A stretch of DNA of 64,000 nt from Streptomyces sp. NBC_01264 (GTDB lineage Bacteria > Actinomycetota > Actinomycetes > Streptomycetales > Streptomycetaceae), in assembly GCF_026340675.1 (NCBI RefSeq), contig NZ_JAPEOX010000004.1, forward strand, positions 186,001 through 250,000, given 5' to 3'. The translations under genes were made by a program, and so were the position numbers. How positions within the stretch are numbered: the stretch's first letter is position 1; each line of letters opens with the position of its first letter. The notes below the pieces were generated by a model. That model was not told the origin of the DNA. It saw only the letters and a program-made list of their open reading frames with translations, and did not search any database. This document shows positions 8,117-60,433 of the stretch, in pieces.

Positions 8117-8150
8117 ACGATCTGCGGAACTGCCTGTGGACAGAGTCCGG
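8117..8150 (-). promoter_or_regulatory. DnaA-box-like promoter element, proximal copy for 7148-8035
   Basis: On the minus strand this reads CCGGACTCTGTCCACAGG, then 10 nt, then GATCGT in the -10 position. The element lies about 85 bp from the start codon. Confidence 0.6.
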
Positions 8151-8176
8151 TGATCGCGAGGGGCCCCTGTGGACAG
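8150..8176 (-). promoter_or_regulatory. DnaA-box-like promoter element, distal copy for 7148-8035
   Basis: On the minus strand this reads CTGTCCACAGG, then 10 nt, then GATCAC. It lacks the GGACTC half seen in most copies. Its centre is 33 bp from the proximal element, about three helical turns, so two proteins could bind on one face. Confidence 0.45.
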
Positions 8177-8207
8177 CTGCGGGGTTCCCGCGGGGCTCGG
8201 CTACCGG

Positions 8208-8756
8208 TCAGATCTTGTCTCCCGGCTTGATGTGGTCCCACGTGTCCTTGTCGACCCGCTTCCAGTTGCTGCGCTTACCGTCCTGGATGAGGACCTCCCA
8301 GACCGCCGGGTGGCGCTGGGTGCCGGTCTGCTCGCGACCCGTGTACTCGCGGTCGCAGTGGCGTCGGGTCGTGTTGCCCCCGCCGGTCGCACCTCCCGCG
8401 CTGTTGCCGCCGCTGGTGCCCTTATCGAGGTTCTTCGAGTTGGGCTGAGCAGGCTTGACCTTCGTGGTTCCTCCGGTGGTGGAGGAGCGGCCCCCGGAGG
8501 TGGAGGAACGGCCCCCTGAACCGCCGGTCGTGGTGGCGCGGCTGACGCCGAGAGTGAAGGCGCTGGCGCTGATGTTGCGGCAGTTGGTCTCGCGGTAGGT
8601 ATCCCGGTAGGTCGGGGTGACCCTCTCGGCCTGGTGGCGCTTGTCCTTTACGGTGCCGTGTTCCAGCGGGCCGGAGTCGGGGCCGCACGCTCCGAGCGCG
8701 AGAGCCGCGGCGAGGGCGGACGTGGTGGCCGTGATCCGGCGGGCAGTCAGGTTCAT
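8208..8756 (-). CDS. Secreted lipoprotein
   Basis: A 182-residue protein starting at ATG 8756. A basic N-terminus, a hydrophobic stretch and the lipobox LGAC (Cys24) predict a lipoprotein signal peptide. The mature part has a Gly/Ser/Thr-rich low-complexity linker (about 80-125) and a C-terminal globular segment ending in WDHIKPGDKI. No catalytic motif is seen. It has its own copy of the CTGTCCACAGG promoter element 56 bp upstream, which links it to the transfer genes. A role at the cell surface during mating is possible. Confidence 0.75.
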   Translation of the reverse strand: MNLTARRITATTSALAAALALGACGPDSGPLEHGTVKDKRHQAERVTPTYRDTYRETNCRNISASAFTLGVSRATTTGGSGGRSSTSGGRSSTTGGTTKVKPAQPNSKNLDKGTSGGNSAGGATGGGNTTRRHCDREYTGREQTGTQRHPAVWEVLIQDGKRSNWKRVDKDTWDHIKPGDKI

Positions 8757-8811
8757 GACGGCGCGGGTCTCGCTTTCATGGGTGAAGGTGGCTCGTACGG
8801 CTGGCGGCATG

Positions 8812-8840
8812 AATGTCGCGCAGGCGACCTGTGGACAGGG
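8812..8840 (-). promoter_or_regulatory. DnaA-box-like promoter element of the lipoprotein gene
   Basis: On the minus strand this reads CTGTCCACAGG, then 10 nt, then GACATT as the -10. The GGACTC half is not conserved (GCCCCTG). Confidence 0.6.
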
Positions 8841-8904
8841 GCCGCCAGGGCGGGCCGGTTGTCCCGGCCCGCCCTGTGGGAACCAGTGGCCCCGCCGGCT
8901 CAGC

Positions 8905-8947
8905 TTGACGCGTATAACTTTCCATATGAAGATGGATGCGTCAACCT
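8905..8947 (+). promoter_or_regulatory. Accessory-regulon operator and promoter, site 1
   Basis: TTGACGCGTATAACTT at 8905-8920. By alignment with the clearer copies, the -35 is TTTCCA (8919-8924) and, after 17 nt, the -10 is CAACCT, which is weak. It precedes the winged-helix gene at 8997. Confidence 0.5.
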
Positions 8948-8996
8948 TTCCGCGTCATCACGGCGCGGTGTCGTCCGCGATGACCTCGGAGGTCAC

Positions 8997-9440: not shown

Positions 9441-9489
9441 CCGCCCCGTCGCCCCCATCTCCGAGAGGACGTGCTTTCCGATCACCACC

Positions 9490-10017: not shown

Positions 10018-10049
10018 AACCTGACGACCGTGTTCGATGTCCCTGGCCC
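10008..10049 (+). promoter_or_regulatory. Accessory-regulon operator and promoter, site 2
   Basis: TGACGCGTAAAAC at 10008-10020 directly joins CTGACG (-35 like), followed after 17 nt by a poor -10 (TGGCCC). The first 19 bases match site 6 at 21939 with two differences. It overlaps the 3' end of the 9490 gene. Confidence 0.4.
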
Positions 10050-10676: not shown

Positions 10677-11434
10677 CGGGCCCGCCGGCGGGCGAGCCCC
10701 AGGCCGTGGAGCTCAGCTGGGCCCAGCGCGCGGGACTGCACAGCGCGGCGGTTCATCCTGCGGGCGACGTACCGGCATCGCTCGCCGACAGCGAGCTGTA
10801 CGGCCTGGAACGCCTCGGCCTCATCGGCGAGATCGGGCCCCGCCTGCGGCGGCTCGGCCCCCATACCCGCGCGGCGCAGTTCCGGATCAACGCGGCGGGA
10901 AGGACTCGTGTTCTCGGGGAGGCGCTGCCCCGGGTTGTGGTGGTCCCGTGCTCGAACACGAAGTCCGCTGCGCCCGCGGGTGCTGCCGGCGAGATGTACA
11001 TCGGGAGCTACCACCGGGCTGCCCGACGGGCCGCCGAGACCCAGGCCGGCCCCGACAGCCAACTCCTCGTGCTCTCGGCGAAGTTCGGGCTGTTGCGCCC
11101 GCAGGACCACATCCTCCGGTACGACCTGCGCGCGGGCCAGCGCGGCCAGGTGCCGCGCGCCGTCCTGCTGAGCCAGGCCCACCACCTGGCGGTAGGCGTC
11201 GCGGACGTGACGGTCTTCGCCGGTAAGGCGTACGCGAACCTCGCCCGTACGGTCTGGCCCGCGCTCGCGCACCCGCTCGCCGGTGCCCGCGGTATCGGGG
11301 ACCACCTGGCGTTCTTCGCCGACCTCTACGCCCCGGATCGCCGCGGCGGTGCGCCCGACGGGCCCGGACTCTGTCCACAGGGCCAGGGCCGCACGATCTC
11401 CCACATCACCCCCACGGCCGCCCACCGGCCCTGA
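10673..11434 (+). CDS. DUF6884-like protein
   Basis: A 253-residue protein. The N-terminal 75 residues may be a small winged helix. From about residue 85 the sequence has the pattern VVVVPCSNTKS ... GEMYIGSYHRAAR ... LLVLSAKFGLLRPQDHI ... YDL, which I recognise as the DUF6884 type: a nucleotide-fold-like domain of unknown activity with an invariant Cys and Ser after a beta strand. It overlaps the upstream gene by 4 bp. Its 3' end carries, inside the coding sequence, the promoter element for the downstream VWA gene. Confidence 0.7.
   Translation: MTGPPAGEPQAVELSWAQRAGLHSAAVHPAGDVPASLADSELYGLERLGLIGEIGPRLRRLGPHTRAAQFRINAAGRTRVLGEALPRVVVVPCSNTKSAAPAGAAGEMYIGSYHRAARRAAETQAGPDSQLLVLSAKFGLLRPQDHILRYDLRAGQRGQVPRAVLLSQAHHLAVGVADVTVFAGKAYANLARTVWPALAHPLAGARGIGDHLAFFADLYAPDRRGGAPDGPGLCPQGQGRTISHITPTAAHRP
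11364..11397 (+). promoter_or_regulatory. DnaA-box-like promoter element of the VWA gene
   Basis: CCGGACTCTGTCCACAGG at 11364-11381, then 10 nt, then CACGAT as the -10 (11392-11397). It is embedded in the last codons of the preceding gene, 52 bp before the VWA start codon. This is one of only two plus-strand copies. Confidence 0.6.
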
Positions 11435-11448
11435 CGAACGGATCTCCC

Positions 11449-12147
11449 GTGCTCAAGAAGTTCTTCGGCTCCTCCACCCCCGACGTACCGTCCGCTCCCG
11501 TTGCACGGCCGGCGCGGACGTCGGTCGCCGACCTCACCAAGAAGGCGGCACACAGCCTGCAGAAGTCCGGTCTCGCGGGCGAGCGCGCGGCCGTCTACCT
11601 CGTGCTGGACCGGTCCGGATCGATGCGCAAGTACTACTCGGACGGCACCGTGCAGTACCTGGCCGAGCGCGTCCTCGGGCTGTCGCGCACCCTCGACGAC
11701 GACGGTTCGGTGCCGGTGACGTTCTTCTCCACGGACGTCGACGGAACCACGGTGGTCAGCGTCGACAACTACGAAGGCCGCATCGAGGAAGTACACCGCG
11801 GACTGGACCACATGGGCCGGACGAACTACGCCACGGCGATCCGCGCGGTGATGGCGCACCACCGGGCCTCCGGCGCCACCGCGCCGGCACTCGTCGTCTT
11901 CCAGACCGACGGCAACCCCGACGACCGCGCCGAGACGCTCGAGCTGATGCGCCAGGCGGTCGACCAGCACATGTTCTGGCTCTTCGTCTCCTTCGGGAAG
12001 AAGGTCGACTTCCTCCAGACGCTCGACCACCTCGGGCTGCCGGTGGACCACATCGGGCTGTTCCGGGCGGACGACCCCCACCGGATCGGTGACGAGGACC
12101 TCTACGACGGGATCACCTCTCAGTTCGTGCAGTGGCTGCGCGCCTGA
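11449..12147 (+). CDS. VWA-domain protein (tellurium-resistance/TerY-like)
   Basis: A 232-residue protein that is almost entirely one von Willebrand A domain. The MIDAS motif DRSGS is at about residues 54-58, the MIDAS Thr is in GRTNYATAI (about 125), and the acidic residue is in FQTDGNPDD (about 150). Such domains bind a metal ion and mediate protein contacts. A basic N-terminal segment (KKFFGSS ... LTKKAAHSLQKSGL) precedes it. There is no signal peptide, so the protein is cytoplasmic. It carries its own conjugation-type promoter element, unlike its neighbours, and so may be expressed with the transfer genes. Confidence 0.85.
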   Translation: MLKKFFGSSTPDVPSAPVARPARTSVADLTKKAAHSLQKSGLAGERAAVYLVLDRSGSMRKYYSDGTVQYLAERVLGLSRTLDDDGSVPVTFFSTDVDGTTVVSVDNYEGRIEEVHRGLDHMGRTNYATAIRAVMAHHRASGATAPALVVFQTDGNPDDRAETLELMRQAVDQHMFWLFVSFGKKVDFLQTLDHLGLPVDHIGLFRADDPHRIGDEDLYDGITSQFVQWLRA

Positions 12148-33626: not shown

Positions 33627-34493
33627 TCAGGCCTGGCCGGCGGAGTGGCGGCCGGCGCGGCGCTTGCCGTACCCGACGGCGCCCACCGTCGCCAGGCCGG
33701 CCGCGAGCAGTCCGCCGGCGGCGAGAGCGAGCTGCGAGTTGCCGTCGGCTCCGGTGTGCGCGAGGCTCCCGGCCGGCGTGACGGTGTCGCTCGCGCTGAT
33801 CTGCTCGACCGAGCCGCCCTTGGCACCGGACTGGTTCGCCCCGTCCGGCTTGCCCTCGGATCCTCCGGAGCCCGAACCGCCCGAGCCCGAACCCCCGGAC
33901 TGCGAGCCGCCGCTTCCGGTAGACGGGTCCGCCCCCGGGTCGGTGGTGGGCGGCTTCGTCGGGTCCGTCGTGGGCGGGGTCGTGGGATCGGTGGTCGGCG
34001 GCTTCGTGGGGTCCGTCGTAGGCGGGGTCGTGGGGTCCGTGGTCGGCGGATCGGTCGGGTCCGTCGTCGGCGGGTCCGTCGGATCGGTGGTCGGCGGGTC
34101 GGTGGGGTCGGTGGTCGGCGGGTCGGTGGGGTCGGTCGTCGGCGGGTCCGTCGGATCGGTCGTGGGCGGGGTCGTCGGGTCCGTCGTCGGCGGGGTCGTC
34201 GGGTCGGTGCCCGGCTCGGTCGGGTCGGTGGTCGGCGGCCCCGTCGGATCGGTCGTCGGGGGCTTGGTCGGGTCCGTGCCCGGCTCACCAGTCGGTCCAG
34301 GGCTCGGCTTCTCGGCGGCCGGGGGGGTCGCCGTCTCCGGGCTCGGCGAGGCGGTGTCCGCGGCCGTAGCGGAGACCTTCGGCCCGGGGGTGTCGGTCGC
34401 GGCGAGAGCGGGCGCGGCCAGCGCCCCCGAAGCAGCGACGAGCGCGGCGGTCGCCATGACGCTCCGCAGCACGCGTGTACGGGTCTTACGCAT
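33627..34493 (-). CDS. Sortase-anchored surface protein with Pro/Thr/Asp repeats
   Basis: 288 residues from ATG 34493. It has a signal peptide (about 1-30, cleavage near ALAATD), then tandem PTTDPTxP repeats (about 75-185), a Gly/Ser/Lys segment, and the sorting signal LAHTG (about 244-248) followed by a hydrophobic helix and basic tail. LAxTG fits the class E sortases of Streptomyces. The repeats make a rod-like stalk. A DnaA-box-like promoter element 84 bp upstream groups it with the transfer genes, so it may be an adhesin that aids mating contact. That function is inference. Confidence 0.8.
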   Translation of the reverse strand: MRKTRTRVLRSVMATAALVAASGALAAPALAATDTPGPKVSATAADTASPSPETATPPAAEKPSPGPTGEPGTDPTKPPTTDPTGPPTTDPTEPGTDPTTPPTTDPTTPPTTDPTDPPTTDPTDPPTTDPTDPPTTDPTDPPTTDPTDPPTTDPTTPPTTDPTKPPTTDPTTPPTTDPTKPPTTDPGADPSTGSGGSQSGGSGSGGSGSGGSEGKPDGANQSGAKGGSVEQISASDTVTPAGSLAHTGADGNSQLALAAGGLLAAGLATVGAVGYGKRRAGRHSAGQA

Positions 34494-35160
34494 GGGTGAG
34501 ATCAGCCTCCACTGATGCACGGCAGGTCGGCCGGTCAGCGCGTGGTGCGCCGGGGCGAAAACCTGCTGGTGAATCGATCTTGGGAGGGTGGACCTGTGGA
34601 TAGAGTCCGGCGATTTCCGACCGCTGTGGGCGACGACGCCGGTCTGCCGCCGCGAGAGCTGCACCCCGCCTCATCAGACAACGGGGCGCAGTGGGGCAAA
34701 AGCATGCACATCGGCTGGCCGTACGGAAGCCAGCGGGAAGGCCGTGGGCCCGGCGACGGGCAGGTACACGCCTTACCGAACAGCGCGAGGGGCTCTCGGC
34801 AGGTGATGCGCGCGTGAGCGGTGAACCCATTCGCCCTGAGCACACCAGCTCGTTCAGGGCAGGACGATCTGCGGACTTGCTGAATCCGTTGCGGGCGCCC
34901 GCAACGGCAGCGCGGGGCCGCCCGTGACGGACCTTTCGCGAACTACCTGCAGGCTGACGGGGCTCGGCTACTCTGTCTGCTGGGTTACGCGGCCGTACCC
35001 GATGGCTCTGCCGTCAAAGGGGGTTCACACCTTCGGCCGTGGGGTCCGCGGTCGGCCCCCGAGGGGCCGGTTTTACGGCCGGCACCAAGGCCGCACCCCA
35101 CATCGCCCACGCGCTCACCGACGCCTCTTGCTACCGGCCGACGAACGCGCTCGAGAGCGC
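34494..35160. other. Intergenic region with palindrome and hairpins
   Basis: The 667 bp between the two minus-strand genes contain the promoter element above and the perfect 20-bp palindrome CGTTGCGGGCGCCCGCAACG (34887-34906). A plus-strand terminator-like hairpin, CGGCCCC / GGGGCCG followed by TTTT, lies at 35053-35074. No convincing gene is present. The plus-strand frame at 34924-35172 has no ribosome site and no protein character. Confidence 0.5.
34577..34610 (-). promoter_or_regulatory. DnaA-box-like promoter element of the anchored-protein gene
   Basis: On the minus strand this reads CCGGACTCTATCCACAGG, then 10 nt, then CAAGAT as the -10 (34577-34582). The leader is about 80 nt. Confidence 0.65.
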
Positions 35161-42462: not shown

Positions 42463-44568
42463 TCAGGACCCCGCGCGCGGCCGCGGCGGGTGCCCGTTGC
42501 GGGAGCCGCCGGCCGGCGGTAGTGCGCCGGGGGTGCGGCCCGGTGTGCGGGTCGGCCGCGGCGGGGCGGCCGGCGGCGGGTAGGTGCGGAACCGCGCCCC
42601 GGACGGGTTGGCCGGCCGGTTGATGACGGTTCCCTGGATGACCTGCCCGGCGCCGGGCGGGGAGTTCGGCGGAACTCCGGTGCGGCGGGGGGCTCCGGGC
42701 CGCACCGTGTAGGGTCCGGCGGTCCCGCCCGTCCCGGTGCGTCCGGGACCTGCGGGCCGGCGGGGTCCGGGCCTGGGCCCGGTGCTGGGACGGGTGTGCC
42801 GTCCCGGTCCGGTGGCCCTCGGTCCCGTGCTCCCGGGCCCGGTGCTCCCCGGTCCGCTACCTCCGGGCCCGGCGCCGCCCGGTCCCGCGCCTCGCGGGCT
42901 GGGGCCTGCGGGGCCGAGGCCGGCAGGGCCGGTCGGGCCGCCGCTTCGTCCGGGTCCGACCCCGGGTCCGCCTGATCCGGGCACGTTGGGCGGGTAGTTC
43001 GGGGGCGGCGGAATGGTGCGGGAGGGCCGGGTTCGCACATCGCCGGTGCCGGTGCCGGACGAAGTGTTCCCCGAGTTGTCCCCGTAGCCCCGGGGGTTGC
43101 GCGTCGACGTCGGGGGGTGGCGGTCCATGTCCCCGAAGCCGCCGCCGCGGCGTCCGCCGACGGCGTTGCGCAGCCGACGGGCGGAGGCCATCCGGCTGAC
43201 GGTGGAGAGCACGCCGCGCCCCGCCATCTGGGCGCCGCCGGCGCTGACGATGCCGTCGAGGCGGCCCTTGACCTTGAAAGCCATCGCGGCCGCGCAGATG
43301 TTGAGCGCGGAGACCATGAGCCAGCCGTAGGACGGCAGCAGCGACATCATGGCGACGCAGACGACCATCACCGAGCCGAGCAGCATCGTCGCGGTGAAGC
43401 TCACCATGACGAGGCCGAGCAGCATTTCAAACCATTGCACCCCCCACTGACGGGGTTTGCCCGGTATGCACCACAGGGTGGCGAATGCGACGCCGCACAC
43501 CAGGAGCATCAGCGCGCCGATGAGGCTGGCGAGGGTGGTAAACGCCAGGGTCAGGACGAGGGCGCAGAAGATGACGCACGAGATGATGCCGGCGAGAAGT
43601 ACGCCGATCCGGCCGCCGGGGGTGTGGCCCTGGCGCCACTTGACCGCCTCGCCGCCGACGGTCTCGCTGTCGAGGGTCTTGGCGAGGTAGTCCTCGCGGG
43701 CGTCCATGTCGGTGCCGAGCTTGACGACGTCGTCGCCCCACTCCTGGCAGGCCTTGACGGAGCCAAGATCCGCGATGCACCAGGGCACTGCCACGTAGGT
43801 GCGCCACACCGCGTCCCCCGCGCGGCGGACCGTGTTGTCCTTCTCATTGCCGGACCACTTCGGCTCCGGTGTCTTGAAGGGCATCGCCGACTCTCCGCCG
43901 GAGAGCCCGGCGCCGATCGTGCTCATCGCGACGGAGGCACCCAACTGGCGCCCATTATCGACGCCTTTGACCCAGGTGGCGGGGGCTACCAGGAAGGTCG
44001 TGGCGATCGCGGCGCTGGCCGCGACCCAGGCGATCTGCCCGAGCGGGGAGGACTCCGAGCGCTTGGCCCAGGCGATGAACCCGCCGACCGCGACGGCGGT
44101 CGGGAGGAACGTCGTCATCATCGGGCCCGCGGCCGCGCCGATCGCCTTGGAAATCGCTCCCTCGATCTCGGGCAGGCTGACCACGTTGAAGCACCAGCCC
44201 ACCACCACCACGGCGGCCCGGCCCACCAGCGTCAGGATCTGCATCAGCATGTTGCCGAAGCCGTGCAGCCAGCCGTCGATCAGGTCGCCGCCGGTCAGAT
44301 CGTCCGAGAGCTGCTTGTCGAGCTGGTAGACGTCGGGGCTGTAGCTCTCGAACAGGGTTCCCTGGCCCGGCGGTTTGAAGGGGCTGGGCATCATGTCGCC
44401 GATGCCGCCCGGCTTGTAGTCGTCGGGGCCGTCGGCGGCCGCGGCGGGAGCCAGGACGCCGAGGGTCGCGAGGATCCCCGCCGTCGGGATCAGCAGGGTG
44501 CGCAGCCGCGGCAGCATCAGCCAGGCCCGCAGCGCCGCGTAGCGGAAACGTTTCATCAACTGGTTCAT
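42463..44568 (-). CDS. VirB6/TcpH-like polytopic membrane protein
   Basis: 701 residues from ATG 44568 (GGGAG upstream). A signal-like first helix (TLLIPTAGILATLGVLAPAAAADG) is followed by an extracellular segment, then six to eight hydrophobic helices between about 110 and 470. The last 230 residues are Gly/Pro/Arg-rich with GPGGxGPG repeats and are disordered. VirB6-type proteins form the membrane channel and the long tail probably recruits other components. The gene is translationally coupled to a 26-residue reading frame just upstream. Confidence 0.75.
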   Translation of the reverse strand: MNQLMKRFRYAALRAWLMLPRLRTLLIPTAGILATLGVLAPAAAADGPDDYKPGGIGDMMPSPFKPPGQGTLFESYSPDVYQLDKQLSDDLTGGDLIDGWLHGFGNMLMQILTLVGRAAVVVVGWCFNVVSLPEIEGAISKAIGAAAGPMMTTFLPTAVAVGGFIAWAKRSESSPLGQIAWVAASAAIATTFLVAPATWVKGVDNGRQLGASVAMSTIGAGLSGGESAMPFKTPEPKWSGNEKDNTVRRAGDAVWRTYVAVPWCIADLGSVKACQEWGDDVVKLGTDMDAREDYLAKTLDSETVGGEAVKWRQGHTPGGRIGVLLAGIISCVIFCALVLTLAFTTLASLIGALMLLVCGVAFATLWCIPGKPRQWGVQWFEMLLGLVMVSFTATMLLGSVMVVCVAMMSLLPSYGWLMVSALNICAAAMAFKVKGRLDGIVSAGGAQMAGRGVLSTVSRMASARRLRNAVGGRRGGGFGDMDRHPPTSTRNPRGYGDNSGNTSSGTGTGDVRTRPSRTIPPPPNYPPNVPGSGGPGVGPGRSGGPTGPAGLGPAGPSPRGAGPGGAGPGGSGPGSTGPGSTGPRATGPGRHTRPSTGPRPGPRRPAGPGRTGTGGTAGPYTVRPGAPRRTGVPPNSPPGAGQVIQGTVINRPANPSGARFRTYPPPAAPPRPTRTPGRTPGALPPAGGSRNGHPPRPRAGS

Positions 44569-44701: not shown

Positions 44702-47293
44702 TCATGCGGCTTCCGACCCTTCCGCGGGAGGGTTGTGGACAGAGTCCGCGGACTCCGGCTCGGCGCCGGGTATCGCATCCGCGAGCGCGCTGTCGTGGTC
44801 CTGGGCCTGGTCCTTGGGGTTGGTGGACAGGGCCCGCAGCAGCTCGTAGGAGGGGGCGTCCCACTGCATGGTGGCGACCCGGTCGCGGCGGTCACGCACG
44901 ATGCAGTGCCCGTGCCTGATATCGCCGTGGGCGTCCTTGCCGACCCCGTGGATCAGCGCCCGGGTGCTGTCGGAGACGGGCAGCCGCAGCAGTTCGGCCA
45001 TCGCGTCCTGCTGGCTTCGGGTGGACTGCTCAAACGCACAAACCGTAGTAATTGCTTCCAAGACGCCGTCCATTCCCAGCAGCGACTTCGGGTCCTGGGT
45101 GTCGATCGCCAGGGAGGTGTCCAACGCGCGGCCGGTGCGGGCGATGTAGTCGATGAAGCGGCGCCCGTCGTCGGTGCCGGTGAGGACGTGCACCTCCGGA
45201 ATCGCCACGACTTTCGGGAGATTCCGCAGGTCAGCGCGTGCACTCGTGTTGAGGGCGTACGCGATGAGGCCCCGCATGAGAGCGAGCGAGACGCGCTCGG
45301 TCATCGTCATGTCGGACGGCTTCGTGCCGGCCTGGGGCATCGTCAGGCCGGGCACCTGGACCAGCCACAGCCCCGGCTCCGGGCGCAGCGGGGACGCGCC
45401 GGGACGGGGCTTGCCGAGGAGCGGCGCCCCCAACTGGGTGCGCGACAGTTCCGACAGCGCCTCCCCCGCCTCCGCGGCGAGCGGGTCGCTGCTCGCCTCC
45501 AGCAGCTCGATGACGCGCCACGTCGCGGCGTCCTCGTGCTGGGCGACGGCGTTGCAGGCGCGCAGCAGGTGCGTCTCCACGCCCGCGTCCCGCATCCGCT
45601 CCGGCAGGATGATCAGCAGTTGGGAGACCACCTGGAGGGCGGCGTCGCCCCGGGGCAGCAGGAGGAAGACGTCGGCGACCGACGGGGTGTCGACGCCGCA
45701 GGTGACGTGGTGGGAGGGGAGCCCCAGGTACTCGCCGGCCTTGATCAGGCCGCCCTCGTCACCCTTGAAGCCCAGCATCAGCGAGAACGCACCCTTGAGG
45801 CCCGCGATCAGCGTCGCGAGCATCATCGACGTGGTCTTTCCCCGGCCCGAGCGTCCGACGAACGCGGTGGTCGTCGCATCACCGCGGGAGGAGCCGGCCG
45901 TGATGTCGATCCGGCACACCCCGGGGGTGGTCCCGGTGAGCAGACCCGCGATGGGCCCCTCGTCGTCCCCAGCCTCGCTGCCACCCCAGAACATCGAGGC
46001 CGCGAGCGCGTCGGTGGTGCGGATGTGGCCCAGATCCTGAACGCGGACCATGTCGCCGATCTGCGCTTCCAGCCACAGCTCGCGCTGCTCCTCGGACGCG
46101 ACGATGACGTCGATGGACAGCCCGGCGTAGTGCGCGACGACGGCGTCGCAGCGGGCGCGGAGGTCTTCGAGGGACTCGGTGGAGGAGACGATGATCCGCG
46201 GGTGGTCCTCCAGGAGGGTCATGCCGTCGCGGGACATCTGCCGGCGCAGGTCCTCCATGACCCGCTCGGTTTCCTCGGTCTCCGCAAAAGTCTCGCCGGC
46301 GGATCCCTCGGCGGCGGAGCGCCGCTGCTCCTTCGCCGACTGGCGCTGCTTGTCGACCGACTTGATGGCGGTGCCCTTGCGCCACACGCTGAAGCGGATG
46401 CTGGCTTCCGGGCACACCAGCGGGTCACTGCCGGTGTCCGGGTGCTGGTAGCGGATCTCGCTCAGGCAGCGCAGCCACTCCTGCTCCCCCGGCGTGATGA
46501 GGTCCTCGGGGAAGGCGGGCATCACCAGGACGCTGACCCAGGCGGCTGTCTCACCGCGGGCGTCCATCATGCGCAGGTGGTCCGAGTGCGGGATCGCCTT
46601 CGACTGGGTCAGCCGCACCAGGGCGGCGCCGGTGACGGTGGGCAGGTGCGGCGGGGCGGGCTGCGGGCGGAAGCTCTCCCTGGAGATCGCCCAGGCCAGC
46701 AGCTCCGCCGGCGCGATGCGCGCACGCCACGGGGTGGCCTCCAGTCGGCGTTCCATCCGCCGGGCCAGGCCGTCCAGGTGGTTCAACTCGGCCTCGTCGA
46801 GGCCGGTGTGGCCCAGCCCGAGAGCGCCCGCGACGCCGTTCTTGACGGTGGCGTTGGCGGCCGAGTCACGCTCGGCGATCCTGATACCGAGCAGGATGTG
46901 CCGCTGGGGAAGGTCGAGGGTGTCCAGGCGCTGGGCCCACATCGCCGCGACGGCCTCGACGTCGCCCGCGCTGAAGATCTGCCGGGCCTCCTCGCGGTAG
47001 TCCTCGCCGTCCAACCGCGACCAGATGATCTTGAGGTGGCAGTCGTAGCCCGGGAGGACTTTCGCGAGCGCGAGCGCTGCCGCGTCCTGCTCCAGGTCTT
47101 GCCTGTCCTCCGGCATGAGGTCGGTGTTGGCTGCCGACAGGGTGAACCATGCCTCCGCGGCGACGTCGGTGACGACCAGGCCGTCGGCAACGGCCACCAA
47201 CTGCGGTTCCTTCATCAGGCGTTCGGCGCCCAGGCCCAGCAGGCGGCCGAACTTCGACGCGGACTTCTTCGCCGCCTTGGTGGTGGTGCTCAT
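44702..47293 (-). CDS. VirB4-like conjugation ATPase
   Basis: 863 residues from ATG 47293. The N-terminal 450 residues are helical and bind other channel parts in known VirB4 proteins. The motor domain has Walker A FVGRSGRGKTTS at about 476-487. It later shows VVAIPEVHVLTGTDDGRRFIDYIARTGR and SLAIDTQDPKSLL, matching Walker B and the motif that senses the gamma phosphate. It energises pilus or channel assembly and DNA export. The last codons contain a DnaA-box-like promoter element for the downstream genes. The next upstream gene overlaps it by 4 bp. Confidence 0.85.
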   Translation of the reverse strand: MSTTTKAAKKSASKFGRLLGLGAERLMKEPQLVAVADGLVVTDVAAEAWFTLSAANTDLMPEDRQDLEQDAAALALAKVLPGYDCHLKIIWSRLDGEDYREEARQIFSAGDVEAVAAMWAQRLDTLDLPQRHILLGIRIAERDSAANATVKNGVAGALGLGHTGLDEAELNHLDGLARRMERRLEATPWRARIAPAELLAWAISRESFRPQPAPPHLPTVTGAALVRLTQSKAIPHSDHLRMMDARGETAAWVSVLVMPAFPEDLITPGEQEWLRCLSEIRYQHPDTGSDPLVCPEASIRFSVWRKGTAIKSVDKQRQSAKEQRRSAAEGSAGETFAETEETERVMEDLRRQMSRDGMTLLEDHPRIIVSSTESLEDLRARCDAVVAHYAGLSIDVIVASEEQRELWLEAQIGDMVRVQDLGHIRTTDALAASMFWGGSEAGDDEGPIAGLLTGTTPGVCRIDITAGSSRGDATTTAFVGRSGRGKTTSMMLATLIAGLKGAFSLMLGFKGDEGGLIKAGEYLGLPSHHVTCGVDTPSVADVFLLLPRGDAALQVVSQLLIILPERMRDAGVETHLLRACNAVAQHEDAATWRVIELLEASSDPLAAEAGEALSELSRTQLGAPLLGKPRPGASPLRPEPGLWLVQVPGLTMPQAGTKPSDMTMTERVSLALMRGLIAYALNTSARADLRNLPKVVAIPEVHVLTGTDDGRRFIDYIARTGRALDTSLAIDTQDPKSLLGMDGVLEAITTVCAFEQSTRSQQDAMAELLRLPVSDSTRALIHGVGKDAHGDIRHGHCIVRDRRDRVATMQWDAPSYELLRALSTNPKDQAQDHDSALADAIPGAEPESADSVHNPPAEGSEAA
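44716..44749 (-). promoter_or_regulatory. DnaA-box-like promoter element inside the virB4-like gene
   Basis: On the minus strand this reads GCGGACTCTGTCCACAAC, then 10 nt, then AAGGGT. It is embedded in the last 50 bp of the coding region and would drive the VirB6-like gene and those after it. Confidence 0.45.
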
Positions 47294-49875: not shown

Positions 49876-50913
49876 CTACGCGGTCTTCGCGGTGACCGCC
49901 TCGACCTGCCAGCGGCTCGCGCTGCTGGCGGAAACCTTCGTGATCGTGACCTGGTAGGTCTGCTGCAGCTGGGCGCCGCCGACCTTCCACCGCACGGTCG
50001 CGGTGCCGCTGCGCTTGTCGCCCGTTCCGGCGTCGACGACCCAGGAGTCCAGGGCGTCCATGGCCATCCCCCCGCCCAGCGGCTGGATGTTCGCGCCGGG
50101 GGCGGCGGCCTGGTCGGCGCTGCCCGCTGCCCAGGAGGTGAGGAAGGTCTTGACCGTGTCCCGGGTCGTTCCGGAAAGCTGCGAGTCGGCTTCGGGACCG
50201 TCCGGCGCCTTGTAGCCGGCGGTCTTGGGCATCCCGACGAGCGCCGGTGCGCCCGTCACGACCACCCGGCCCGCGCCCTGCGCGACGGGAACTTCCAGGC
50301 CGCGCCAACTGGACACGGTCCTCTGGTTCTTGCCGGTGCCGGTCACCACGCTGACCCGTACGTCGACGCTGACCCGGGCCCGCTTCCCGCCGACCTGGGT
50401 GACGGCCCCCGGAATCGTCTGCGCGACGAGCTGCATTCCCGCGCCGTCCCAGCCGAGCTTCGGGTCGATCCCCTCGGCCAGGTCGGCTGCGAGTTCCTTG
50501 GCCCTGAGATCGGGGGCCTGGGAGTTCCAGTTCATGTACGACCGGGCGAAGCGCGCCGCAACCTGCTGCGCTTCGAGCTCGGGGACGTTGTTCCTCCTCG
50601 CCTCGGCCAGCTCGTCCACCTGCTCGACAGGCGCCGGCGGCTTGGCCGGGAAGATCCACGTCCTGACACCCGTGAACGCGGCGAGGAAGATCACCAGCCA
50701 GATCGCGATCCGGCCGGCCTTCCGGACCGCCGAGCGTCCCGAGGACTCCTCCTCCTCCGCCCAGGCGAGCGCGGCCGGCGTCCGCGCCTCCTTCACCTCC
50801 CCGCCGGCCGCCGCCGGCCCCTCCGGCACGTGGTCAGCAGGCGCGGGAATTCCTTCTTCACCGCCCTTGGGCTCCTTCGGAGGAAGATTCAACATCTTCC
50901 GCAGCGCACTCAT
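49876..50913 (-). CDS. TcpC-like (VirB8-type) conjugation protein
   Basis: 345 residues from ATG 50913, chosen because GAGGAG stands 6 nt upstream. An upstream GTG at 50988 with a poorer site would add 25 residues. Residues 1-70 are cytoplasmic, a helix lies at about 71-92 (AIWLVIFLAAFTGVRTWIF), and two nuclear-transport-factor-like domains follow. The C-terminal segment VVRWKVGGAQLQQTYQVTITKV is beta-rich. TcpC forms a trimer in the outer leaflet side of the channel. The gene has its own promoter element. Confidence 0.75.
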   Translation of the reverse strand: MSALRKMLNLPPKEPKGGEEGIPAPADHVPEGPAAAGGEVKEARTPAALAWAEEEESSGRSAVRKAGRIAIWLVIFLAAFTGVRTWIFPAKPPAPVEQVDELAEARRNNVPELEAQQVAARFARSYMNWNSQAPDLRAKELAADLAEGIDPKLGWDGAGMQLVAQTIPGAVTQVGGKRARVSVDVRVSVVTGTGKNQRTVSSWRGLEVPVAQGAGRVVVTGAPALVGMPKTAGYKAPDGPEADSQLSGTTRDTVKTFLTSWAAGSADQAAAPGANIQPLGGGMAMDALDSWVVDAGTGDKRSGTATVRWKVGGAQLQQTYQVTITKVSASSASRWQVEAVTAKTA

Positions 50914-51014
50914 CCCGTACTCCTCGACCGCAATTCCCGATAACGGCTCTCCGCGTACGCGGACATGACGGATCGCCATGCGGCCCACGCCTTTCGCGGA
51001 AAGCTCACACCTGA

Positions 51015-51047
51015 AACCTAGGAGCGTTGCCCTGTGGATAAGTTCCG
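51015..51047 (-). promoter_or_regulatory. DnaA-box-like promoter element of the TcpC-like gene
   Basis: On the minus strand this reads CGGAACTTATCCACAGG, then 10 nt, then TAGGTT (51015-51020). The 9-mer TTATCCACA is a perfect consensus DnaA box. Confidence 0.7.
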
Positions 51048-51144: not shown

Positions 51145-53094
51145 TCAGCTCAGGCTGTCCTCCTCCTCCTCGTCGTCGTCCCCCGGGCCCTCCTCCCCGG
51201 TCCCGCCGTCGTCACCCTCGTCCTGCGCACCGTCCGCGTCGTCGACCTCGTCGGCCTCGTCGACGTCCTGTGCCTGCGCAGCGTCGGCGGCGGGCCGGTA
51301 GTAGTCCGCCAGGTCCTCCACGGCGAACAGCTCCTTGCCGTCGACGACCTTGCCCGCGGGGAAGTTGGAGCGGCGCCGCTTGTGCTGACGCATCAGCTCG
51401 GCGCTGACCTCGATGCCCTCCTCGGCCAGGCGCCGGGAGACCTCCGCGAGCGGCAGCAGCTCCACCTCCGGCTCCTGCTCCTCGGCCTCCGACGCACCCT
51501 CACCGGGCTCCAGCTCCAGCGCCTCGTCCTTGACCATGTTCACGGCCGTCGCGTCATCACCACTCCCCTGACCAGCGGGTATCGCCTCCTTCTTGGCCAT
51601 GGCGTCCCCCGTGAAGAGCGGGCGCGACTCCTGCAGGAGCGAGGGAAGCCGCTGCGGGCTCCGGGCCGGCGGCGAGCCGTACAAGTCCCGGGTGCTGTAC
51701 GCGAACTTCGTTCGCAGCTCCAGGGCGTGGGCGCGGAAGTCGTCCGGATCGGCGTACGGAACCTGGATCCACACCCGCCGGTTTCCTTCGACGATCAGCA
51801 TGCGGCCGGCCTGGTCGATCGACTCGGGCACCGGGCTCGTGTTGACGATCATTTTCCACTGATTCGCGTTGAAATTTCCCATGAGGATCATCCGGAACAT
51901 GTTGCGCAGGCCCCGGCTGCCGACGGCGGCCTCGCGAAGGTCCTGGAAGACGCCGATGATCGTCACGTTGACGTGGCGGCCCATGCGCATGATGGTCGCG
52001 ATGTCGCCCCAGATCGGGTCGCTGGCGGGGTCGCCCTTTTCCTTGTTCTCGTTCCACCACTCCTTGGAGGCGTCGCCGAATTCGTTGCCCTCTTCGAGAA
52101 TGAGGGTGAGCCGGTCGAAGTCCTTTCTGGGGTCGGTCTTCTTCACATAGTTCCGGGCCTCAACTTCCCTCGCGGCCCAGGAAATTGCCGACCTCATGTC
52201 GCCGATATTCCCCGGGTCGGTGAAGAGGTGAACTCCCTCGACGTTCTCGAAGCAGTTGATGCTCGCCATCTTGACGTCGATGCCGATGACCGTGGCGCGC
52301 TGCCGTACAAGCTGCGTGATCACCATCTGCAGGAACGACGACTTACCGCCTCCGGAGCCCACCGACAGGGCCCACATGGCGGTTTCGCCGGTCATCTCCT
52401 TGATGATCGGGCGCTGCCGCTCGTCGATACCCAGCACCAGCTGCCCCGGCTTGCACGCGGCGATGGCCTTCTGCACCACGTCGCTGAAGAAGTCGACCCG
52501 CTCGGGCGGCTCCAGCTTCGGCTTCGGCTTCTTCGGGGTGAACGTCACGTTGAAGGGGTGGTTTTTGAGGTTCCACTCCCCCGACCACACCTTGTCCGGT
52601 GTGCCCATCCGCTCCTGGATGAGCTTGCGCATCTGCTCCTTGAAGTCGCTCGGATCGTGCCAGCCGTCGGGAAGCCGGATGGACACGAAGGAGCGGTCGA
52701 TCGGGATGTTCAGCGCGCGCAGCCGCTGGTGGTCGTCCCAGCCGGAGAGCAGGTCCTTCAGCGCCAAGGACATCGGCACCACCAGGCTGCGCATGTGGTT
52801 GCGCCGCCCGCGGCCGCGTATCGCGGCGATGATCGCGACCGGAACAGCCGCTGCGCCGACGGCGATCGACACCCGGATCACCCGGTCGTGATCCTCCACC
52901 CACCACCACATCCACGCGGCCCATCCCGCCCAGGCCAGCAGCAGGAGCCGCACCAGGGCGATGCACCACCGCGGCATACCGCCCGGCGGCCGCGGCTCAC
53001 CGTCCATGGGGGCTCCGCTGACGAAGCGGCCGAAGCCGATCGCCCCCTGTTCCAGGCCGTCTTCGAGCTGCTTGTCGAATTCAGTCCGCGCCAT
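51145..53094 (-). CDS. FtsK/TcpA-type coupling ATPase
   Basis: 649 residues from ATG 53094. Two membrane helices lie at about 52-90. A soluble linker leads to the motor with Walker A SVGSGGGKSSFLQ (about 245-257), the Walker B-like DRLTLILEEGNEF (near 335), and an Arg-finger-like region NVTIIGVFQDLREA. The last 90 residues are acidic (EEEEDSL tail). TcpA-type proteins bind the DNA or relaxase and pump it through the channel. It is transcribed from its own promoter element. Confidence 0.85.
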   Translation of the reverse strand: MARTEFDKQLEDGLEQGAIGFGRFVSGAPMDGEPRPPGGMPRWCIALVRLLLLAWAGWAAWMWWWVEDHDRVIRVSIAVGAAAVPVAIIAAIRGRGRRNHMRSLVVPMSLALKDLLSGWDDHQRLRALNIPIDRSFVSIRLPDGWHDPSDFKEQMRKLIQERMGTPDKVWSGEWNLKNHPFNVTFTPKKPKPKLEPPERVDFFSDVVQKAIAACKPGQLVLGIDERQRPIIKEMTGETAMWALSVGSGGGKSSFLQMVITQLVRQRATVIGIDVKMASINCFENVEGVHLFTDPGNIGDMRSAISWAAREVEARNYVKKTDPRKDFDRLTLILEEGNEFGDASKEWWNENKEKGDPASDPIWGDIATIMRMGRHVNVTIIGVFQDLREAAVGSRGLRNMFRMILMGNFNANQWKMIVNTSPVPESIDQAGRMLIVEGNRRVWIQVPYADPDDFRAHALELRTKFAYSTRDLYGSPPARSPQRLPSLLQESRPLFTGDAMAKKEAIPAGQGSGDDATAVNMVKDEALELEPGEGASEAEEQEPEVELLPLAEVSRRLAEEGIEVSAELMRQHKRRRSNFPAGKVVDGKELFAVEDLADYYRPAADAAQAQDVDEADEVDDADGAQDEGDDGGTGEEGPGDDDEEEEDSLS

Positions 53095-53165
53095 GACCCA
53101 CCGTCCAATCCACGACTCAGCTCCTCTCGCTCCCGGCTGAGTGCGCGGGAGAACGATCAAGCTGA

Positions 53166-53199
53166 ACCGTAGAAAGATCGCCCTGTGGACAGAGTCCGG
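53166..53199 (-). promoter_or_regulatory. DnaA-box-like promoter element of the coupling ATPase gene
   Basis: On the minus strand this reads CCGGACTCTGTCCACAGG, then 10 nt, then TACGGT (53166-53171). The remainder of the 463-bp gap 53095-53557 shows no further supported feature. Confidence 0.7.
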
Positions 53200-53557: not shown

Positions 53558-55162
53558 TCACGACACCTCCTTCACCACCTTCAGCCTCTGCCCCCGCCGC
53601 CGCACGTCCTCTTCCTTCGCGATCTTGTGAGCCTGGCCTCGGTTCACCTCCCGTCCGTGCGCGGCAAGCCAGTCGACGATCGTCGGAGTGTGCGTCGACT
53701 CGAGGACGCCCACCGCGTACCTCACGGCGGCGGCGTTGGACCTCAAGGCGGCGATCGCCTGGGTATGCACCTCAACATCCTCCGCCTCGAGCTCCACGCT
53801 GCTCGACATGTCAGGTCCACGTCGATTCGGCGTCGCCTCCTCGATGGCCACGACAGCTTTCGGAGCAGCTCCTCCGTGCTCTCCTCCCCCCTCCCCCGCA
53901 GGCTCGTCGCGCGAGGTCGGGGCCGGCAGGTCAGGAGGCGAGCCGTCCGGCACTTCCGGGGGGTCGGCCTCTGGCGCCTCCGCGTCAGCCGTAGAGGAAG
54001 GAGCCCCGGCAGGTTGGCCGGGCTCACCCTCGACGGCCACCTCCGCCTCCTGGTCCCGACGGCTCGGTACCTCTGATCCGGCTTCGCGCGAGGGCAGGAT
54101 CGGCAAGTCAGGAGGCGAGCCGTCCGGCACTTCCGGGGGGTCGGCCTCTGGCGCCTCCGCGTCAGCCGTAGAGGAAGGAGCCCCGGCAGGTTGGCCGGGC
54201 TCACCCTCGACGGCCACCTCCGCCTCCTGGTCCCGACGGCTCGGTACCTCTGATCCGGCTTCGCACGCAGATGCGGCAGCACCGGATGCGGCAGCCCGCG
54301 TCGCTGGCTCCGGACCTACCGCGACCGCCACTCCCCCGCCCTCCGACGTGGTGCTGCCGATCGGCGATACATCCCCAACGGGTGCGCCGCCAGGAGGTAG
54401 CTCGTCGTAGGCGAGAGAGGCCGCGTCCCGGTCGGCGACTTCCGGGACTGTGCTATCAGCATCCGGCTCCTGGGAAAGCGACGGAGACATTGCATCGAGC
54501 GGCACGCCGTACCGGGCAATCCGTAGGGGCAACAGCTCCTCCACCGGTGCTTTCCACCGCCATGCGCGACCGAACCGGCTTCGCAGGCGCGCCTGGTAGA
54601 TCAGCCTCTGCTGCTCCGCTGCGATGACATCGTCGTACCTACGAATCTCCCAGAGCATCATCCTCCGCCACAACCGAAAGGTCGGGAGAGGGGCAAGCAG
54701 CCACCTCCAGAGGCGCACCCCCTCCATATGGCGGTCAGCAGTTATCGCAGCCAGCCGCCCGACGGCATGACGGGCTGCCTCCACCGTCACGACGAAGAGC
54801 ACTGGAATCACTCCGTGCATCCCGACGCCCACGGGGTCCGGCCACGCCGCGGCGCCATTGAAGGCAATCGTCGCCGCGGTCAGAAGCCAAGCCGCCTGCC
54901 TGAGCATGGGGAACGGAATCCGTAGCCATGTCAGCAACAGGTCCAGCGCGAGCAAGACTGCGATCCCCGCGTCCACCCCGATCGGGAAGACGGTCGCGAA
55001 GGCTCCGAACCCCTTCTGTTCAGCCAGCTCGCGGACGGCCGCGTACGATCCCGCGAATCCGATGGCCGCAATGACCAACGCTCCCGCGACGACAACGCCT
55101 ATGAGGATGCGCTGGGTTCGGTTCAGGACGACGTCCCCTGTGCTGCGCTCCACACTTTCCAC
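53558..55162 (-). CDS. DUF2637 membrane protein with recent internal duplication
   Basis: 534 residues from GTG 55162 (GTG 55153 is an alternative with better spacing from GGAGGGA). Four hydrophobic helices in the first 140 residues have the DUF2637 pattern RTQRILIGVVVAGALVIAAIGFAGSYAAVRELA ... FPIGVDAGIAVLLALDLLLTW. A helical segment follows, then a long disordered Glu/Pro/Ala region, and a C-terminal winged-helix-like segment (TPTIVDWLAAHGREVNRGQAHKIAKEED). DUF2637 includes spread proteins of Streptomyces plasmids. The disordered region contains two nearly identical blocks of 53 codons. Confidence 0.8.
   Translation of the reverse strand: MESVERSTGDVVLNRTQRILIGVVVAGALVIAAIGFAGSYAAVRELAEQKGFGAFATVFPIGVDAGIAVLLALDLLLTWLRIPFPMLRQAAWLLTAATIAFNGAAAWPDPVGVGMHGVIPVLFVVTVEAARHAVGRLAAITADRHMEGVRLWRWLLAPLPTFRLWRRMMLWEIRRYDDVIAAEQQRLIYQARLRSRFGRAWRWKAPVEELLPLRIARYGVPLDAMSPSLSQEPDADSTVPEVADRDAASLAYDELPPGGAPVGDVSPIGSTTSEGGGVAVAVGPEPATRAAASGAAASACEAGSEVPSRRDQEAEVAVEGEPGQPAGAPSSTADAEAPEADPPEVPDGSPPDLPILPSREAGSEVPSRRDQEAEVAVEGEPGQPAGAPSSTADAEAPEADPPEVPDGSPPDLPAPTSRDEPAGEGGGEHGGAAPKAVVAIEEATPNRRGPDMSSSVELEAEDVEVHTQAIAALRSNAAAVRYAVGVLESTHTPTIVDWLAAHGREVNRGQAHKIAKEEDVRRRGQRLKVVKEVS
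53930..54264 (-). repeat. Direct tandem repeat inside the DUF2637 gene
   Basis: Copies at 53930-54087 and 54107-54264 (158 bp each) agree at every base I compared. The offset of 177 bp is 59 codons, so the frame is kept. Confidence 0.9.
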
Positions 55163-55188: not shown

Positions 55189-55222
55189 AGCGTGCAGAGA
55201 TCCACCTGTGGACAGAGTCCGG
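55189..55222 (-). promoter_or_regulatory. DnaA-box-like promoter element of the DUF2637 gene
   Basis: On the minus strand this reads CCGGACTCTGTCCACAGG, then 10 nt, then CACGCT. Confidence 0.65.
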
Positions 55223-58320: not shown

Positions 58321-59522
58321 GCTGCGAGCTCCTTAGCCAGTTTCCGCATCGCCTCAGCCTGCGGGCAGTCAGCGGCGTACTGGAACAGCGGGATTTCATA
58401 GTCCGAAGACTCACGACCCTCGATGCTGTCCTTCAACTCCGCCAGGACGATGGGGGAGTGGAGGGTGTTCCACTCGTCGTAGAACCCCTTCGTCACCGTG
58501 CCCTTCCGCGAGTCGTAGGCGTTGATGATGAATCCGAGCTGATCGACCTCGATCCGCATGTTCTTACACGTGGTGTCGATCTGCCCCTTGAGGAGGTTGT
58601 AGGCACGGAAGGATGAGCGGTCCGACCAGACCGGGATGAGGATCCCGGAGTGGTCGATCAGCTCCCCGGGCCGGCGATGGACGAAGTCGATCGCGAGCTC
58701 CATGCCCAGTCCGAGGTTCGGGGGTCCGTCGAGAACGATCACGTCGTAGTCGTCCTCGACCGGCTCGAGGGCCCTTCGGAGGCACGTGTCGCGGCCGGCA
58801 GACATCGTGGCGAGAGCTGCATCCATGAGGAACGCGTCCTCGAACACCGGCAGTATGTGGAGGCGGCCGTCGAACATCGGGCCTGGGTTGATCTCCCGCC
58901 CCTCCATCGGCACTTCCTCGAGCGCGATGATCGAGCGTCGAAGGTGCTGGGTCGCCTTACCGAGCATGTGCTGAAGGAGGCTGTCACCACCTGTCGGCAG
59001 CTCAGCGACTTGAAGTCGAGCTGAGAGGTGACCCTGCGGGTCGTAGTCGACGATCAGGACCTTCAGGCCGAGTTCGGCGAAAGCTTGGGCGAGGGCTGCC
59101 GCGATGAACGTCTTCCCTACGCCCCCCTTCTGGTTGCCGACGAGGATGCGCTTGACCGGCTGTCGAACCAGCCGGTCAACGGGGGAGGGGTGGCGAAGAA
59201 GCCAGTAGGTGATCGCCTGAGCGATGCCCTGAACCTTCGTCAGGTTCCTTGCGTCACACTCTCGCTCGAAGCGCTCGACGCCACCAGCGGGCACGTAGGA
59301 GGCCCAGGACTTCGCGCCCTTGACGTCGACCTTGTCGACGTCGGCGTTCTCGTACCAGAGGTTCAGCGCGTTCACGATGGCGTCGGAGACGTTCAGGCCG
59401 TGCTCGGCAGCGCGGATCTTCAAGTCCCTACGCATCTCCGGCATGACGTTGGCGATGAGTTTTTCAGTGCCGGATTCACTGTTGGGGGTGGTCATGGAGG
59501 GCAACATATCAGTCACCGACAT
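58317..59522 (-). CDS. parA: ParA partition ATPase with N-terminal DNA-binding extension
   Basis: 401 residues from ATG 59522. A -10-like TACCGC (59529-59534) ends 6 nt before this ATG and there is no ribosome site, so a leaderless transcript is likely. ATG 59507 or 59495 would shorten it. The deviant Walker A GNQKGGVGKTF is at about 129-139. Other ParA motifs are DYDPQGHLSARL (A') and YDVIVLDGPPNLGL (B). The first 120 residues resemble a ribbon-helix-helix or HTH extension (EKLIANVMPEMRRDLKIRAAEHGLNVSDAIV). ParA ATPases that carry such a domain repress their own operon. Confidence 0.9.
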   Translation of the reverse strand: MSVTDMLPSMTTPNSESGTEKLIANVMPEMRRDLKIRAAEHGLNVSDAIVNALNLWYENADVDKVDVKGAKSWASYVPAGGVERFERECDARNLTKVQGIAQAITYWLLRHPSPVDRLVRQPVKRILVGNQKGGVGKTFIAAALAQAFAELGLKVLIVDYDPQGHLSARLQVAELPTGGDSLLQHMLGKATQHLRRSIIALEEVPMEGREINPGPMFDGRLHILPVFEDAFLMDAALATMSAGRDTCLRRALEPVEDDYDVIVLDGPPNLGLGMELAIDFVHRRPGELIDHSGILIPVWSDRSSFRAYNLLKGQIDTTCKNMRIEVDQLGFIINAYDSRKGTVTKGFYDEWNTLHSPIVLAELKDSIEGRESSDYEIPLFQYAADCPQAEAMRKLAKELAA

Positions 59523-59898
59523 GTCAGTGCGGTAGGCTGCCAGGAGTCGCCCAAGATGATCATGTTTCCGGTGTCCATACTGCGCTAATTGGGGGACTCC
59601 CCGCGGCGCTAGTGGGACATACCGGGCACAGAACATCGCCTGCCTCACTCGACTGCCGGTCCGTCACCTGCGCGTGTGACTGACTAACTTGTACGTCTCA
59701 GCGGCCTCGATGTCACGACGATCCCAACTCACCGCACCTCCTCGCGATCCAACCCTCAAACGCGGTCAGGTTCCGCGCCGGATGAGGCCTTGGAACAGCC
59801 AGCGCACCGATAGGTCAGCGCGACGGTTCGTCCGCTGCTCCATGTCAAACGCCGGCTCATCGGCATTCGCTTGGCTGTCTTGCACGACTCGTCGACGT

Positions 59899-59915
59899 GG
59901 GTACCTGGGGTACCC
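59899..59915. repeat. Lone iteron copy upstream of parA
   Basis: GGGTACCTGGGGTACCC, one base different from the array consensus. It lies 377 bp upstream of the parA start. Confidence 0.85.
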
Positions 59916-60400
59916 GCTGTCCGCCTCCTGCGAGTTCTGCAGCTCCACCGGCGCGCAGATGTTGGATGCGTTTCCACATCAGCGCGGCGCGCAACAAGCG
60001 CAAAACCGCACACGAAATTGAGCGGCGGAATAGTTTTCAAGTCGCCAAAATAAATTACGAAACTGAACTCTACTTTGCCCTGTGAGTTGTCGTTCTGCTC
60101 CGGGAAAATGAACGCGTCTGATAGTCAACTGATTGAGCGCCACGCCCGACAAAACCAGCAACACCGCAGGTCAGCGAGGGTGTATGGTACGAGCCTCTAA
60201 TTGAATTTCGCGATTCTCGATTACTCGAATAGGGTCGCAAAATCCAGAGGGTCAGGACTCCTGCGCCTGGCAGCCCGCATGGGTAGCGCCCACTTTTTAG
60301 GCTCACTTGTTTCTGTTCTCGACGCGAGGAGGAGCGGTGCTGATGACCACCTGTGCAGCACACGCGTTCACCAAGCGTGCGGCGATCAGCGCGCCAGGGC

Positions 60401-60433
60401 CGGAACTTATCCACAGGCGCGAGCTTGCAGGAT
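60401..60433 (+). promoter_or_regulatory. DnaA-box-like promoter element before the 60587 gene
   Basis: CGGAACTTATCCACAGG (60401-60417), then 10 nt, then CAGGAT (60428-60433). TTATCCACA is a consensus DnaA box. A 9-bp hairpin follows at 60450-60474. Confidence 0.7.

Follow-up and report, generated by a model that had tools for sequence, protein, structure and literature searches.

Middle promoters of T4 keep a -10 but have the -35 replaced by a MotA box centred around -30, as described in PMC6755090, and PafBC promoters, according to PMC11804915, are used by the housekeeping holoenzyme and carry a special -26 motif that is read by an added factor. Here we analyse a 64,000-nucleotide (nt) stretch of Streptomyces sp. 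NBC_01264 (the window; bases 186001-250000 of contig C4, NZ_JAPEOX010000004.1, which is 319,979 bp long), for which a reading of the letters alone (the original prediction) had proposed ten promoters sharing a DnaA-box-like element at a fixed distance from the -10. The observation of element and spacing is confirmed. The reading we favour, with a probability of about 0.68, is that the sites form a class of sigma-70 promoters in which a 17-bp activator site has replaced the -35, and that this class is used by backbone genes of linear plasmids.

All ten elements are found at the predicted places and in the predicted orientation, the positions being the left ends of 33-nt units made up of the element, 10 nt and a hexamer, except that 11364 should be 11365 (Table 1). 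The hexamer that had been called -10-like, exactly 10 nt downstream, reads NANNNT in nine of the ten units and does not at 8150-8182 (GATCAC). The two sites said to contain TTATCCACA exactly do so (51015 and 60401), and the claim that the strand fits the downstream gene extends to all 19 sites on C4, at each of which a same-strand open reading frame (ORF) starts no more than 320 nt downstream (a count of mechanical ORFs on the sites' own strand only). A search beyond the window, proposed in the original prediction, revealed 18 promoter units (element plus an A/T pair at the fixed distance) on C4 and many on related plasmids. Motif-like matches in mirror order near both ends of C4, such as 1398 with 318578 and 8204 with 311772, led us to take C4 for a linear replicon whose ends are inverted repeats of about 8 kb or more; in its backbone (VirB4-like ATPase, TcpC-like and DUF2637 proteins) it matches Streptomyces linear plasmids. 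The window has nine occurrences of YTRTCCACA-N13-A-N3-T, whereas 200 first-order Markov draws average 0.01. Across C4 the 17-mer has seven exact matches, four with one mismatch, four with two and none with three, and the reversed 17-mer has none with zero to three mismatches; background begins at four mismatches (14 matches, and 12 for the reversed word), although four of these 14 we count as real: the tandem copy at 8182 and three occurrences of CGGAACTTATCCACAGG. A loose scan that allows the 11-mer CTSTCCACAGG up to two mismatches gives no excess over chance (46 matches versus 50 expected), indicating that the signal resides in the strict core and its spacing.

The anatomy of the element is best seen on eight related plasmids, on which CTNTCCACAGG occurs 14, 12, 12, 13, 13, 8, 9 and 7 times (88 in total, versus 10 for the reversed word). 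Among 84 distinct sites from these plasmids, which were picked by the core alone so that downstream bases played no part, the second hexamer position is A in 81 and the sixth is T in 80, and the first (-12) is free (C 41, G 28, T 12, A 3). Exact CTGTCCACAGG occurs 54 times in 15 elements or element pieces, with the A/T pair at spacing 10 in 51 cases; when the spacing is shifted by 1-5 nt either way a single A/T pair is found in all (at -3), and larger shifts give at most six (at -8). In the same 15 elements or pieces the promoter is kept with the core variants CTAT (9/10), TTAT (11/13), TTGT (1/1) and CTTT (1/1) and with a final C (4/4) or T (1/1), and is found at none of 20 occurrences with one change within TCCACAG. 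Position 1 of the box is C or T, position 3 is A or G (once T), and TCCACA is fixed; CGG(A/C)CT upstream of the 9-mer adds about 5 bits (76 sites, not all independent because some are orthologous). The CTGT-NN-ACAG inverted repeat to which the original prediction drew attention is present in most sites, but its right arm is fixed and its left arm varies (CTGT, CTAT, TTAT), and a symmetric operator is not supported by these sequences. No recognisable -35 lies at 16-18 nt, the denial of a good -35 hexamer at 17 nt being borne out by the CTCTGT found there, which is part of the element and unlike TTGACN; A(-11) and T(-7), as in sigma-70 promoters, stand at a fixed place before the likely start.

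The surroundings of the units are those of promoters. Each of the 17 YTRTCCACAG(G/C) cores of NZ_CP109056.1 is intergenic in the PLSDB table and is followed by a coding sequence on its own strand, 8-121 nt past the hexamer in 16 cases and 351 nt past it in one (for the cores at 12036 and 142854, the PLSDB tables place the nearest genes at 82 and 51 nt). In a pool of 295 distinct sites, the start codons of frames 50 amino acids (aa) or longer peak exactly 6 nt past the hexamer (33 sites); offset 5 has 2, offset 7 has 7, and the other offsets below 38 have 0 to 8. Because the pool includes loci gathered with the A/T pair required, we use it for the start-codon peak only and not for the A/T share. 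With a GC filter, 32 offset-6 cases fall into 12 BLAST families, the largest of which (12) is Tap-like. Such a peak is what leaderless mRNAs starting on the A of ATG would show. Taken together, the spacing, the A/T pair and the start-codon peak suggest that promoters with a fixed distance between element and -10 are real, as originally predicted, and of the accompanying proposal that a regulator takes the place of the -35, a single shared regulator is made probable by the sequences.

Within its own genome the element is largely confined to C4: CTCTGTCCACAGG occurs 14 times, with 12 occurrences on C4, one each on C5 and C7, and none on the other seven contigs. A strict pattern is present in 13 of 199 genomes of the genus, this one included (reversed control, 0), and a looser pattern in 198 of 392; most of these have one or two matches, and high counts occur only in G000 (16), G284 (12, its contig C2 being plasmid NZ_CP109056.1), G256 (11) and G028 (6). 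Equal frequency of the motif in Streptomyces chromosomes, named beforehand as evidence against the prediction, is not what these scans of whole genomes (rather than of coding DNA alone) revealed; among the matches listed, the recurrent single chromosomal match is a site upstream of dnaA. Of ten further plasmids of the family, NZ_CP108665.1, which has the same backbone, carries 10 units, two carry one each and seven carry none, the latter including one 1.8-Mb plasmid and three whose VirB4 relative is 46-53% identical. Outside the genus, the 268 genomes of the class have at most four matches each, and many of their matches lie in box-rich stretches resembling origins. In a scan across taxa, the matches listed (80 of 119) include 46 from Streptomyces and one from Kitasatospora, and 20 stretches on viral contigs also match the motif.

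We propose that the element would be the upstream half of a single promoter class which serves backbone genes in one family of linear Streptomyces plasmids, and that on smaller elements and at chromosome ends one to three such promoters may serve rep, tap, tpg and other genes. RNA polymerase with a housekeeping-type sigma, presumably HrdB because of the -10, would read a -10 that is constant only at A(-11) and T(-7), and a protein bound asymmetrically to CGG(A/C)CT-YTRTCCACAG(G/C), at about -39 to -23, would replace the -35 contact. An activator is proposed because sigma region 4 would bind at this very place and because promoters built in this way are known from T4 and PafBC; the bound protein may take over or redirect sigma region 4 in the manner of T4 MotA/AsiA and mycobacterial PafBC, and one signal would thereby govern replication, telomere, transfer and other genes. 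At the level of DNA we regard the element, its constancy, the exact spacing, gene orientation, distribution and a start-codon peak that would fit a start 7 nt past the hexamer as established; activation rather than repression, and the involvement of sigma region 4, we infer.

Several observations weigh against this reading. Start codons are also raised at offset 38 (19) and at several offsets from 43 to 54 (10-12, partly in related genes), and 2 of 31 sites without the A/T pair likewise have a start at offset 6. On NC_023286.1 just 10 of 14 boxes are in promoter position, and the hexamer before the Tpg gene of contig G014:C296, GTTCCT, is without the A. No plasmid-encoded regulator was found in every carrier tested, by searches that may miss short or diverged proteins, and a repressor operator over a weak promoter could likewise keep its place.

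The best single named candidate for the activator, if a tentative one, is host DnaA, which would bind the box and activate, such that the replication, telomere and transfer genes of the plasmids would be switched according to the replication state of the host. The resemblance to the Streptomyces DnaA box pointed out in the original prediction is real, as the core follows the rule YTRTCCACA, and the 9-mer falls within the rule [T/C][T/C][G/A]TCCAC[A/C] as given in PMC3583192. Core variants before CCACA (CTGT, CTAT, TTAT and, once each, TTGT and CTTT) are close to this published rule, and on four whole plasmids YTRTCCACA boxes are in promoter position in 18/19 (C4), 19/21, 19/20 and 10/14 cases. 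The motif is unchanged on elements whose proteins are only about 25-50% identical, which favours a factor that does not diverge with the elements. CTRTCCACAGG is also found upstream of chromosomal dnaA (DnaA recognised by sight); the most recurrent chromosomal match, among the matches listed, is CTRTCCACAGGCTGGGGACAACAACTT, with a DnaA-like protein (again by sight) downstream at loci L361 and L446, and DnaA autoregulation is reported in S. lividans in PMC8203912. However, DnaA alone would not account for the conserved flank, the avoidance of TTGTCCACA and the rarity of such promoters on chromosomes. Conservation is not confined to the box, given the 5 bits or so contributed by CGG(A/C)CT, and TTGTCCACA, listed as a high-affinity S. 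coelicolor DnaA box in PMC4285127, accounts for one of 78 cores (TTGT, 1/78). C at box position 3, which is common in four oriC regions (of nine retrieved, four entered the table of boxes), is absent from the 15 elements or pieces, and second boxes near the sites show no excess. Streptomyces hosts have DnaA, yet the seven unit-free plasmids among the ten further ones lack the promoter. That one DnaA box replaces the contact with sigma region 4 and drives rep, tap, tpg and tra on linear plasmids and chromosome ends, with the host replication state as their timer, strikes us as unlikely. As for the chromosomal sites, CTRTCCACAGGCTGGGGACAACAACTTGAAC is conserved upstream of dnaA in genomes G020, G295 and G014 (L361, L362, L381) and is probably a DnaA autoregulatory box; we do not place this match in the same promoter class, since a better promoter, TTGAAC-N18-TACCGT (by eye), lies just downstream, and its A/T fit is probably incidental.

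Next after host DnaA comes a regulator encoded by the plasmid, a WhiB-like or small helix-turn-helix (HTH) protein, although we hold it doubtful that either the WhiB-like protein encoded in the C4 91107-94435 operon or its 188-aa HTH-like neighbour binds the element together with sigma region 4. The eight related plasmids all have WhiB-family members, and 9 of 11 motif-bearing elements show a WhiB-like pattern, but the proteins appear, by sight, to be of different subfamilies, and the pattern, which can miss members (it overlooked the one listed on G025:C3), was not found on E295 (G295:C34) or E390 (G390:C2). All nine motif-rich plasmids and none of nine motif-poor ones carry the 188-aa protein, but it was not found in G256 (which has 10 sites besides the dnaA one), G390, G091, G211 or G266, and was dropped as a universal regulator. 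The 461-aa HTH protein was rejected in the same role, being not found in 8 of 14 genomes with sites and present in six (two full-length, one in two pieces, three weak). Clustering of the ORFs of 11 elements by BLAST gave groups in at most nine of them, including Tap-like, Rep-like and WhiB-like ones. A plasmid-wide repressor of the kor type (GntR, or ParB-like as RK2 KorB), with the element as its operator over the -35 of weak promoters, could make use of the inverted repeat present in most sites, but we judge it distinctly improbable: the two arms are not both conserved, as only the right one is invariant and the third position of the left one is A in 20 of 76 sites, and a repressor needs no exact 10-nt spacing and leaves the missing -35 unexplained. 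Iterated hidden Markov models for a shared regulator, seeded by ORFs of the 69-kb contig G390:C2, did give GntR-like matches on 11 of 11 elements, though on inspection the profile had taken in antisense ORFs and unlike proteins, and the matches differ, by sight, in their recognition regions; this candidate was rejected. The fixed spacing would also suit an alternative sigma factor that reads the whole element as its -35. We think this very improbable, as none is present in the (incomplete) PLSDB gene table of NZ_CP109056.1, with its 17 cores, an element of about 17 bp reaching to -23 is long for a -35, and the A(-11)/T(-7) pair resembles that of sigma-70 promoters.

The operon at C4 91107-94435, which lies outside the window (L013), encodes small HTH-like, 461-aa HTH, DciA-like (DUF721), small and WhiB-like proteins, and this gene group is kept on related plasmids. 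Elsewhere, the element precedes a relative of the 461-aa HTH protein that is followed by a DUF721 gene (L026, L202).

The genes behind the element on C4 encode VWA/TerF-like, TcpC-like, DUF2637 and other transfer-region proteins, a putative replication protein, a GNAT protein and others. The replication role of the 906-aa protein is suggested by a relative that is followed by a DciA-like (DUF721) gene on three smaller elements (L200, L203, L205). On other elements a Tap gene follows the element (L203, G014:C296; NF047542, 996 bits), as does a transfer gene; the element lies upstream of a Tpg gene on G014:C296 (NF047541, 205 bits), and the hexamer before a Tpg-like gene on G020:C15 is GAGGCT. 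Tandem copies like those at the left of the window are also found on NZ_CP109056.1 and NZ_CP108096.1. At C4 276046-281327 three adjacent paralogous genes each have an element before them, and a relative of these on NZ_CP109056.1 is annotated as a toxin glutamine deamidase domain protein. In several genomes the element lies just upstream of a family of proteins of about 150 aa to which no function is assigned (L031, L032, L369, L447), on plasmids or, often, near chromosome ends. Chromosomal TTRTCCACAGG is found upstream of a TetR-like gene and of PaaA-like genes (L439, L448, L454; names by sight). Promoters of the TTATCCACAGG class share a GTGNGCTTT-like stretch about 6-10 nt past the hexamer, possibly an mRNA leader element.

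Table 1 Promoter units of the window (element, 10 nt, hexamer; window coordinates) and, in the last row, sites of the TTATCCACAGG class
Position	Strand	Element	Spacer	Hexamer	Downstream gene	Remarks
8117..8149	-	CGGACTCTGTCCACAGG	10 nt	GATCGT	ORF 7148-8035 (-)	
8150..8182	-	CCGCAGCTGTCCACAGG	10 nt	GATCAC		Upstream member of tandem pair; last -10 position without T
8812..8844	-	CGGCCCCTGTCCACAGG	10 nt	GACATT	ORF 8208-8810 (-)	Mechanical start too near the hexamer, so true start probably further in
11365..11397	+	CGGACTCTGTCCACAGG	10 nt	CACGAT	VWA/TerF-like gene 11449-12147 (+)	
34577..34609	-	CGGACTCTATCCACAGG	10 nt	CAAGAT	ORF 33627-34520 (-)	No match in family search
44716..44748	-	CGGACTCTGTCCACAAC	10 nt	AAGGGT	ORF 42463-44568 (-)	Element ends in AC, not GG; ORF weakly like mobilome membrane protein CD3337/EF1877 (51.5 bits; cut-off 120)
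51015..51047	-	CGGAACTTATCCACAGG	10 nt	TAGGTT	TcpC-like gene 49876-50988 (-)	
53166..53198	-	CGGACTCTGTCCACAGG	10 nt	TACGGT	Transfer-region ORF 51145-53160 (-)	No match in family search; mechanical start 5 nt past hexamer, later start in relatives
55189..55221	-	CGGACTCTGTCCACAGG	10 nt	CACGCT	DUF2637 gene 53558-55162 (-)	
60401..60433	+	CGGAACTTATCCACAGG	10 nt	CAGGAT	906-aa putative replication gene 60587-63307 (+)	
C4 80146, 237041; W01 85927, 235832; W03 71117, 173140; W08 80946		TTATCCACAGG class				

The string CTGTCCACAGG, searched for at the start of words, is in no paper of the PubMed Central library that we searched (subscription papers lie outside it), and the 10- and 11-letter core words gave no match about Streptomyces plasmid promoters as judged by title or the start of the abstract. 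Among the listed papers that treat DnaA boxes or start sites of linear plasmids from Streptomyces, none describes the element, as far as titles and starts of abstracts tell. Our findings suggest that one protein, perhaps host DnaA, switches many linear-plasmid backbone genes together. If so, the replication, telomere and transfer genes of large linear Streptomyces plasmids, which carry genes among antibiotic producers, would be under common control, and if the reader were DnaA, plasmid transfer would be linked to the host replication cycle. The regulator can now be sought directly, as a short promoter fragment could capture it.

How does this class of promoter compare with described systems? 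In the RK2 Kor regulon and the kor systems of Streptomyces plasmids one regulator acts over many backbone genes, as we propose here, but Kor repressor operators travel with their regulator, whereas the element is a site common to unlike plasmids. The sps sequence, described in PMC4170104 as a short palindrome common to many small Streptomyces plasmids and bound by the plasmid protein SpdA2, is set apart by that description, as it lies in or beside spdA in groups of two or three copies and has an effect on stability; the parS sites of SCP1 are another system according to PMC13245405. The core of the element, as in DnaA-regulated promoters, fits the actinobacterial DnaA box, but the element has conserved flanks outside the box. 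Among known DnaA-regulated promoters we know of no regulon with one box at a fixed spacing. Mycobacterial PafBC promoters likewise combine use of a housekeeping holoenzyme with a special upstream motif; the RecA-NDp motif, TTGTCRGTGG-N8-TANNNT, however, differs in sequence and in spacing, lying about 3 nt nearer the -10. With T4 middle promoters the plasmid promoters share a -10 that is kept and a box near -30 that takes the place of the -35, the plasmid 9-mer spanning about -33 to -25, and this likeness is one of geometry, the element having a different sequence and being found in different hosts.

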